Assembly (NCBI RefSeq): GCF_014839805.1 | Contig: NC_051119.1 | Coordinates: forward strand, 6,131,245 to 6,195,244 | Source: Manduca sexta | Taxonomy: Eukaryota > Arthropoda > Insecta > Lepidoptera > Sphingidae | Length of the DNA: 64,000 nucleotides | Reading direction: 5' to 3' | In this document: positions 37,421 to 51,322 of the stretch, piece after piece | Position numbering within the stretch: position 1 is the stretch's first letter | How the letters are laid out: each line of letters opens with the position of its first letter | Position numbers and translations under genes: made by a program | The notes under the pieces: generated by a model | Told to the model about the DNA's origin: nothing | The model's database searches: none | Seen by the model: the letters and a program-made list of their open reading frames with translations, nothing else

Positions 37421-40400
37421 TTAGTAATGTGCTGCCAACATTCCAGAAAAAACAAGTGAAAAAACAAAGAACATAAGTTTGTCTATAACTTCAGCAAGTT
37501 CTTTCTTGTCGCCGTATGTTATATTTTCAGTTTCCATTTCTTGAACGTTGCTGTCTCTCGGAGTCACAAATACACCTGATTCTTCATTTTCTTGCTCAAT
37601 GTATTGACCGCTTAAAGATATCTGCAAAACAAGTTAGATTTTTGTATATTTTTAATCAACTTCAAAAGGTAGTTATTTAATTCCTCATATTTTTTTTTCT
37701 GTGATAATATTTACGTTGCATTTATTTCAATATAATATTTATATTTTAGCATTGTAATATGTATTGTAAGCAATCTAAACAAAAAACTAATGGTGTCTTA
37801 TAAAACATTATCTCCTGCTTGCGCCATCGCTCGTACGTTTCATCATTTCATTGCATTATATCGATGTAAAAAAAAAACACTTTCATACATATGCACTCTT
37901 TTTATTCCCGAAGGTGTTGGCAGCGGTACAACCATGGTAATCATTTTCATCTGTATTTCCCGTCTCATGATGAGATAGGGAGCCTTTCACTAAATCGAGC
38001 ACTAATTTCAGACTTCGGACTGATATTTAGTAAAAAAACCCAATTTTTGCCTGACTTGAGTTTCGATTTCAAAGACTCGCGAAATATAATATGTAATACA
38101 ACTTTTAAAATAAGTAAAGATATCAAAATCAATAACTAAAATAAAATAAATAAATAAATATAATCAGTAAAACTACCTTCAAAGGCGGCAAGCAGAACAC
38201 AGCTCGTAGCGGCATCGAAGTGAGTATTCTCTTCATTGTATACGTTTCGCAAAGTTTCTCTGTGAGGGAAGACATTAATGCCACTTGAGTGAGCAGAGCC
38301 AGCAGCACCCCTGCCAGCACAGCTGTGTATAGAACCACTGAAATCAATACCAATATTTCCATGTTATACACGGCCATTTCGACATTGCGTTACTAAATGA
38401 AACTAGATCCTACTAATTATAAATGCGAAAGTTTGTGAGGATGGATGTGGAAGAAGTAAAGACGAGTATGTGGATTCAACATTAATGTAGTTTCAAAATG
38501 ACCTTGTATGTGTCGCCAGCTATGTTAGGTCCCGTTTAGGGGGAGGGGTAGACTTATTGCAATTTATTGGCACTACACCCAGATTCCGGGCTGATGCTGA
38601 GCAGAAAGTCCCAAAGCGCAGTAGTACCTACCGTGAAATCCAAAAATTATTAAATTCAAAAGCTATGGCAAATATTTATTTTGCCTGTCAATGACAAAAA
38701 CTTGAAGGCGTAGATAGGTGAAAGCAGGGGGTGTTGCCTCCTTTAACAAAATGTTTGGGATTACCTACATGCAATTTTTGATTGCTCATAGATTATAGGT
38801 TGAGATTTTGACATCCTCTGAATTGCAAACTGGCTACGCTCTTCTACAAGAAGAAGATAGTAGATAGTATAGATAGACTTATGAAAATTTTGCCACCAAA
38901 TAAGCTTTGTTGTGTTTATTCATTATTTATACATGATTATACATATATTTTGCCCATAAAAATGTATTTTGATCATAACTTTACGAGGTACAATTCGTTC
39001 CATTTTTAAAACTAAGTCGTATTCGAATTTCGACCAAAGGCGATACCATTTCATTACTTTCTTAATGGCATAGAAGTGTTAATCCGTCAAAGCGAACGAA
39101 CTCGATGGCTTACACAAGGTTTAGGCTTTCGTTGCTTGAACTTGAAAGAAAAAGTTTTAATTAAAAATCGCACTGCTTTCAACTATCACGACTTTTTATA
39201 TTAAATGCCGCTTTTGAAGGTTTTGTTTCGTTTCCATAAATTAAGTTGATTTACGTCTCAATTATAATTAATTTATTTTATAGTTAAGTGGTATTTAATA
39301 ATGTATTATATGAAAATCGGACAAGTGCGAGTTGGACGCGCTCACCGAGGGTTCCATACAAACTTGTAGGTAAGGTATCCACGTATATATGTTTCTAGTT
39401 TTTAGGTTTTTCTTTTATATGCGCTGTAAGACATTGTTTCTTGTCAAATTGCACGATTCAAGGTCAATAGAAAGTAACCTTTAGGTTTTAATTCCCTTAT
39501 GATATCGCAAAATATGCAACATAAAGGGTCATATCTTTTGATCGCATTGATTTACAAGTTTGATTTCTTCACAGCTGTAAGAGATCGTAATAAACTACAA
39601 CTGGATACCTTCAGTCTTACTTATAAACTTGTTTTAGCGTTAAGAGATGGTTAGGAATTGCTTAATAGCTGTCAATAATATCACCGGTTCCTAGTTTAAA
39701 CCTTATTCAGAGGCAAGATGGTGGGTTTTGACTTACAGCTGATCAAGTAAGTGAGTATGTAAGACTGCTTACGTGTCCCTAAGTCATAATAGCTTAACAA
39801 ACAGACAGACGGATAACAAAGTGATCCTATAAGGGTTCCTTTTGAGGTAGAGAACCCTAAAAATATATATAATGGCAAGCAAGTATACTTTAACGATGTT
39901 TTTTAAGTTGGTATACAACATTGCCGCTAGCACCAGCGAAATGCAAATATCCAATATTAGCCTGTACGATTCCAGAAATATTTAAAGCAATAGTAAAAAT
40001 TCTTATATAACTTGTGGATTGTTTTTTCTTGACAGACAGAAATTATTCATGCAACATAATTTAAAAATGTTTTAATGTATAAGTAAAATTTACTAGTGGT
40101 GCACTTACATATCGATGGGACGGAGTGTGTCGGCACCAAGTTATCGATGTAGCACAGCCCTATGCAGATGAAGACCGTGCAGCTGGCGTAAAACCACACA
40201 CGGCTTAGGGTCAAAGATTCGCCCCAGAAAGACATCAGGACAAACATCGTTAACACTGAAAAATGAAAAATGAACTCCATGGCTCCGAAGACTTTGGGTA
40301 AAATTTAAATAATGCACTCTAGTTAAAATTATCACTCACTTATTTAATTTATATTTAACGAGCTGATGTATTAATTAATTTTGCAGTTTTCTATATGTAT

Positions 40401-51322: not shown

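Follow-up and report, generated by a model that had tools for sequence, protein, structure and literature searches.

A FAMeT-like domain and a Cys-loop receptor are encoded by one gene in Manduca sexta

The window analysed here, a stretch of 64,000 nucleotides from Manduca sexta (RefSeq assembly GCF_014839805.1, contig NC_051119.1, positions 6,131,245 to 6,195,244), carries on its minus strand, from 51322 to 37421, a gene in which a domain of the farnesoic acid O-methyltransferase type (FAMeT; PF12248) is joined to a Cys-loop receptor, that is, to a subunit of the pentameric ligand-gated ion channel (pLGIC) kind. Our preferred reading, to which we give a probability of roughly 55%, is that the product is an orphan pLGIC subunit with a lectin-type jelly-roll PF12248 head before a whole nicotinic-type subunit, and that this head performs a conserved recognition task, by which the receptor would be either held in place or altered in its gating.

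We rebuilt the gene from the raw sequence and obtained 12 exons whose phases agree throughout (Table 1) and whose spliced product is 606 amino acids (aa) plus a stop codon in a single frame. This product is 100% identical, over 100% of its length, to a database protein of Manduca sexta (P0001, named 'neuronal acetylcholine receptor subunit alpha-3'). All 11 intron acceptors are AG and 10 of the 11 donors are GT; the remaining donor, which follows exon 5 (44848-44855, minus strand), is GC, a splice that the identical database protein supports. The 12-exon model with matching phases, proposed earlier from the DNA letters alone (the sequence-only reading), was thus confirmed.

The FAMeT-like domain which that reading had placed in exons 2-4 was recovered by Pfam as PF12248 (Methyltransf_FA) at aa 56-185 (E 5.2e-30, 104.5 bits against a cut-off of 24.2), followed by the ligand-binding domain, PF02931, at aa 221-424 (E 6.7e-20, 71.9 bits against a cut-off of 26). 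The domain scan that it had suggested therefore returned these two families and not the Pfam membrane-domain family, which gave no match in the Manduca protein up to E 0.1; neither did DUF3421. In the predicted model, four membrane helices (428-446, 454-472, 483-508 and 579-605) and a whole pLGIC subunit fold are present, and aa 205-606 were aligned as a whole-subunit fold to nicotinic and 5-HT3 subunits by Foldseek and VIA. Exons 5-12 thus encode, as had been proposed, a ligand-binding domain and four predicted membrane segments, except that exon 5 opens with a linker. The extracellular place ascribed to the FAMeT-like domain is supported by the signal peptide-like N-terminus.

The same domain order is found across Lepidoptera and in two Diptera

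A protein search covering about 5.8 billion proteins, in which the best 7996 candidates by shared words were scored, gave 58 matches at E up to 1e-5, P0001 included; a profile search (likewise 7996 candidates) returned the same 58 proteins. According to a precomputed domain list, both Pfam domains occur in 55 of them. As for the exceptions, part of the ligand-binding domain is absent from P0045, where a weak match remains (19.5 bits), P0056 is marked partial, and P0058 is a short record starting inside the FAMeT domain. In six clusters carrying the source tag lgn (P0002, P0006, P0012, P0025, P0029 and P0031), the longest contigs measure 1859-1994 bases and encode 579-612 residues; a signal-like start is missing from P0002 and P0025. 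As contigs of about 1.9 kb are too short for introns, they are very likely transcript assemblies, and we infer that this is what the tag denotes. The fused frame encoded on them contradicts a break between exons 4 and 5 into two adjacent genes, which the sequence-only reading had named as its own refutation. Judged from these sequences, the FAMeT-like domain and the receptor are one gene, and the proposed fusion holds.

A further search, in which the query was the P0009 FAMeT region (59 matches among 513 candidates), reached Diptera and a mealybug. Both fly proteins, P0060 of Bradysia coprophila and P0062 of Wyeomyia smithii, carry PF12248 and then the receptor domain, in the same order as in moths; compared with five moth and butterfly sequences, their FAMeT halves are 34-37% identical and their ligand-binding halves 18-22%. 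The simplest reading of these sequences is that the moth and fly fusions would have a common origin. The mealybug proteins (Planococcus citri P0059 and P0061) have two PF12248 domains each and no receptor part, one of them with EGF and Dumpy modules in between. The search for this domain order in other insects, likewise suggested earlier, thus succeeded across Lepidoptera and in two Diptera. As our searches depend on exact shared words and a limited number of scored candidates, this distribution is a minimum extent and sets no bound on other orders or on non-insects; the idea of an insect-specific receptor class gains support as far as Lepidoptera and the two flies.

The FAMeT domain is better conserved than the ligand-binding domain

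Among 30 sequences, mean pairwise identity is 64.7% in the FAMeT domain, 45.2% in the ligand-binding domain and 65.6% in M1-M3, and the FAMeT domain is more alike than the ligand-binding domain in 434 of the 435 sequence pairs. Being the better conserved outer domain, it does not look like a passenger. The membrane part, by its residues, is still under constraint.

We examined the receptor half at single positions, counted over 31 chosen moth and butterfly sequences, 30 of which include M2. Positions were mapped via alignment to solved receptor chains, gapless over M1-M2, and the loop and prime numbers applied to Manduca follow the usual conventions. The spacing from the 0' basic residue to the 23' Pro in M2 is identical in 30/30 and in both flies. 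Residue 2' is Trp in 29/30 and in Wyeomyia, whereas Bradysia has Ser there; position 9' carries Ile or Val in 27/30 and Leu in none of the 30, with Phe in Bradysia and Leu in Wyeomyia; at -1', where Glu is a mark of cation-selective pLGICs, Manduca has Ser455 and only 3/30 have E or D.

These unusual M2 residues bring in the main rival to our reading, namely that the protein does not conduct but presents the lectin-like domain on its pentameric scaffold, in adhesion or as a decoy, or else serves as an accessory subunit altering the assembly of its partners. It ranks first among the rivals because a homopentamer would carry a ring of five Trp at 2', and the scarcity of acidic -1' residues, the missing 9' Leu, the fast evolution of the ligand-binding domain and the lack of a Pfam membrane-domain match in the Manduca protein all agree with it. 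However, M1-M3 is as conserved as the FAMeT domain, the M2 spacing is exact in moths and both flies, four helices are predicted, and Bradysia and Wyeomyia have Ser at 2' and Leu at 9', respectively. We therefore regard a non-conducting scaffold as a real but minority possibility.

The pocket leads to a different alternative. Loop B Trp is retained in 30/31 sequences, the nearest solved sequence relatives are nicotinic receptors (the top one against the moth profile being 8bx5, an acetylcholine receptor chain, at 78.5 bits), and 20 of the 58 matches bear acetylcholine receptor names (alpha, beta, eat-2, cup-4 and unc-38 types; pbo-6, 5-HT3 and, in three cases, NtR also occur). It might thus be supposed that acetylcholine or some other small transmitter gates what is an ordinary nicotinic subunit, and that the FAMeT domain is carried along as a passenger. 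Against this, loop D Trp is found in 0/31, and no YxCC or other vicinal Cys pair occurs in the ligand-binding domain of any of the 31 (CC is present in 6/31, outside that domain, at positions 13, 465, 532 and 537). Both Cys of the Cys-loop are kept in 31/31, with 14-19 residues between them (16 in 24/31) instead of the exactly 13 of textbook receptors, and of the two outer halves it is the supposed passenger that is better conserved. The acetylcholine pocket thus appears to be partly decayed, with much of the acetylcholine chemistry presumably lost, and an ordinary nicotinic subunit is rather improbable.

The head is predicted to be a lectin-type jelly roll and not a methyltransferase

The model of the FAMeT domain consists of beta strands, one 9-residue helix and one 3-residue turn, and its predicted fold is a beta jelly roll of the type seen in lectins and carbohydrate-binding modules (CBM). 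The top Foldseek match is the plant glucanase VvEG16 (E 3.6e-5, TM 0.52), and Foldseek also lists a phage baseplate protein, CBM40, PRY/SPRY and spike-protein chains; CBM66 is not among the matches it lists, and Foldseek and VIA rank the fold matches in different order. At the sequence level, the FAMeT profile matched no solved structure up to E 10. The sequence-only reading had suggested a lipid- or carbohydrate-binding module, and the predicted lectin/CBM-type jelly roll speaks for this in part, but protein-binding domains have the same fold.

The Pfam name is all that suggests an enzymatic or sensing role towards farnesoic acid or juvenile hormone, which would make the protein a hormone-linked channel. 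S-adenosylmethionine-dependent methyltransferases have an alpha/beta Rossmann-type fold. As a beta jelly roll is predicted in its place, it is very improbable that the FAMeT domain is a methyltransferase, and we rejected this role along with a hormone-making one. In addition, according to PMC10015273, in vitro work never gave reliable proof of methylation by FAMeT, and mutagenesis in Drosophila left hormone levels unchanged. The hormone reading as a whole is thus highly improbable.

A lectin-like head may carry the conserved recognition

In the mechanism that we propose, the signal peptide would put the lectin-like domain outside the cell, and up to five such domains might crown the pentamer. 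The head, rather than the partly decayed acetylcholine pocket, would then carry the conserved recognition by binding a glycan or glycoprotein partner, and this binding may tether the receptor or shift its gating.

Several points weigh against this picture. Foldseek alone puts glucanases first and lists PRY/SPRY protein-binding domains, and therefore the partner could be a protein. The likeness to lectins (CBM66, galectins and the galactocerebrosidase lectin domain) is a jelly-roll fold shared at 5-12% identity, which shows no binding. The predicted model does not fix where the head sits with respect to the receptor (pTM 0.49). As the loop B Trp is mostly retained and an aromatic residue stands at the loop A site in 25/31, the classical pocket may still bind something. 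Finally, compared with the moth profile the fly receptor halves reach 66.0 and 57.3 bits, which is below 8bx5, although among the 28 solved chains that were listed (E up to 1e-10) they exceed the other 27 (56.9 bits or less). With a solved chain scoring above them, the receptor half does not by itself prove a single origin of the fusion, for which the main grounds are the FAMeT half, the domain order and the M2 spacing.

A bolder form of the preferred reading can be put forward only tentatively, and we think it rather less probable than its negation. The gene would represent an animal pLGIC class which predates the moth-fly split and whose main sensor is the N-terminal lectin domain, i.e. a glycan-gated or glycan-tethered channel, and no eukaryotic pLGIC with a folded accessory domain at its N-terminus would have been described before it. 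A description of PF12248 fused to a receptor was not found in the open-access literature searched, as far as its accessible text goes. In the part of PMC4992803 available, PF12248 stands without comment among 83 Pfam entries of a gamma-aminobutyric acid (GABA) receptor set, so that databases may already have contained the co-occurrence.

Exons and neighbouring features

Table 1. Exons of the receptor gene, with window coordinates and the part of the product encoded by each
Exon	Position	Strand	Encoded part and remarks
1	51244..51322	-	start codon; signal peptide-like N-terminus, aa 1-26; predicted helix 2-16; identical protein P0001
2	49071..49277	-	phase 1-1; FAMeT (PF12248) first part, aa 27-95; conserved VYEI at end
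3	46677..46808	-	phase 1-1; FAMeT core, aa 96-139; conserved VVGGGGN at start
4	45804..45965	-	phase 1-1; FAMeT end, aa 140-193; conserved Cys184
5	44856..45046	-	linker, then start of ligand-binding domain, aa 194-257; GC donor follows
6	44059..44165	-	ligand-binding domain, aa 258-292
7	43743..43874	-	ligand-binding domain; Cys328, first Cys of Cys-loop
8	42255..42360	-	ligand-binding domain; Cys345, second Cys of Cys-loop; loop B Trp352
9	41017..41212	-	last part of ligand-binding domain, then first part of M1
10	40109..40255	-	remainder of M1; M2 (Arg456 at 0', Trp458 at 2', Pro479 at 23')
11	38177..38337	-	M3 and start of intracellular part
12	37421..37621	-	remainder of short intracellular loop, M4, stop

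Intron 7 contains a long AT dinucleotide run (about 42845-42975). No paralogs were found in the window, where tblastn with the protein gave, apart from the 12 exons of the gene itself, two matches attributed to chance (E 3.7 and 6.5).

Downstream of the receptor, at 19479-26662 on the minus strand, lies a GH18 chitinase (PF00704 match in 24244-24726), which matches the chitinase and chitin-binding parts of P0053, a fused receptor and chitinase model from Papilio machaon; since it lies on the same strand as the receptor, the neighbourhood is common to Manduca and Papilio machaon. Wrong fusions thus do occur among gene models at this locus, with a chitinase adjoining here too, but a joining of two adjacent genes through prediction error is scarcely credible for the FAMeT-receptor frame, and was rejected, in view of the many matches and two Diptera that carry both domains, the six clusters of about 1.9 kb and the in-phase exons.

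Inside the chitinase region, a long, repetitive, Thr/Ser-rich open frame (19823-21334, minus strand) is probably a mucin-like linker. Elsewhere in the window, an open frame at 8960-9268 (minus strand) encodes a FUZ/MON1/HPS1-group longin domain (E 3.3e-19), and a GC-rich stretch at 59211-62273 (plus strand) holds non-LTR retrotransposon remains with PRE_C2HC, endonuclease and reverse transcriptase matches.

Comparison with known receptors and FAMeT proteins

In contrast to nicotinic acetylcholine receptor subunits, the Manduca protein has 204 extra N-terminal residues, and the moth receptors differ from them in the longer Cys-loop (>13), the lack of YxCC and of loop D Trp, the Trp at 2' and the rarity of an acidic -1' residue. 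Cephalopod chemotactile receptors (8eis, 9e6b), which are diverged nicotinic-like proteins used in contact chemosensation, match the Manduca receptor by sequence; they are not known to have such an N-terminal domain.

Among orphan insect receptors, the gene probably represents the NtR group in Lepidoptera, a link drawn from source names and divergence. Drosophila NtR, an orphan Cys-loop subunit (AF045471), and the moth receptor are both very divergent: Drosophila Ntr shows 8-11% identity to Tribolium subunits in the row shown in PMC2064938, and, according to PMC4195910, an NtR ortholog outside Drosophila had been reported only in Musca. If Drosophila NtR carries PF12248, the architecture has long been present in databases without a description in the literature searched. 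An orphan insect receptor with conflicting database names obtains a clear hypothesis, and the misnamed FAMeT domain a possible role.

With insect FAMeT proteins (PF12248 plus DUF3421) the Manduca protein has PF12248 in common, but it lacks DUF3421 and is joined to a channel. Insects are said to have the PF12248-DUF3421 type only (PMC10015273), and the mealybug proteins likewise have PF12248 partners outside this type.

A parallel in placement is DeCLIC, a bacterial pLGIC, in which beta-rich jelly-roll lobes precede the ligand-binding domain, as the head does in the moth receptor; unlike the latter, it has two lobes and binds calcium (PMC9897478). DeCLIC is not among the structure matches listed for the FAMeT model, which does not rule out a likeness. 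According to two structural papers, such N-terminal domains were not seen in eukaryotic pLGICs (the PNAS paper PMC9897478), and DeCLIC was called the only pLGIC with such a domain partly characterised (PMC12664993). Accessory N-terminal domains are thus treated there as a prokaryotic feature of the channel family, and the moth receptor would be a eukaryotic case, one that can be cloned and that makes the control of a pentameric receptor by an outer domain directly testable.
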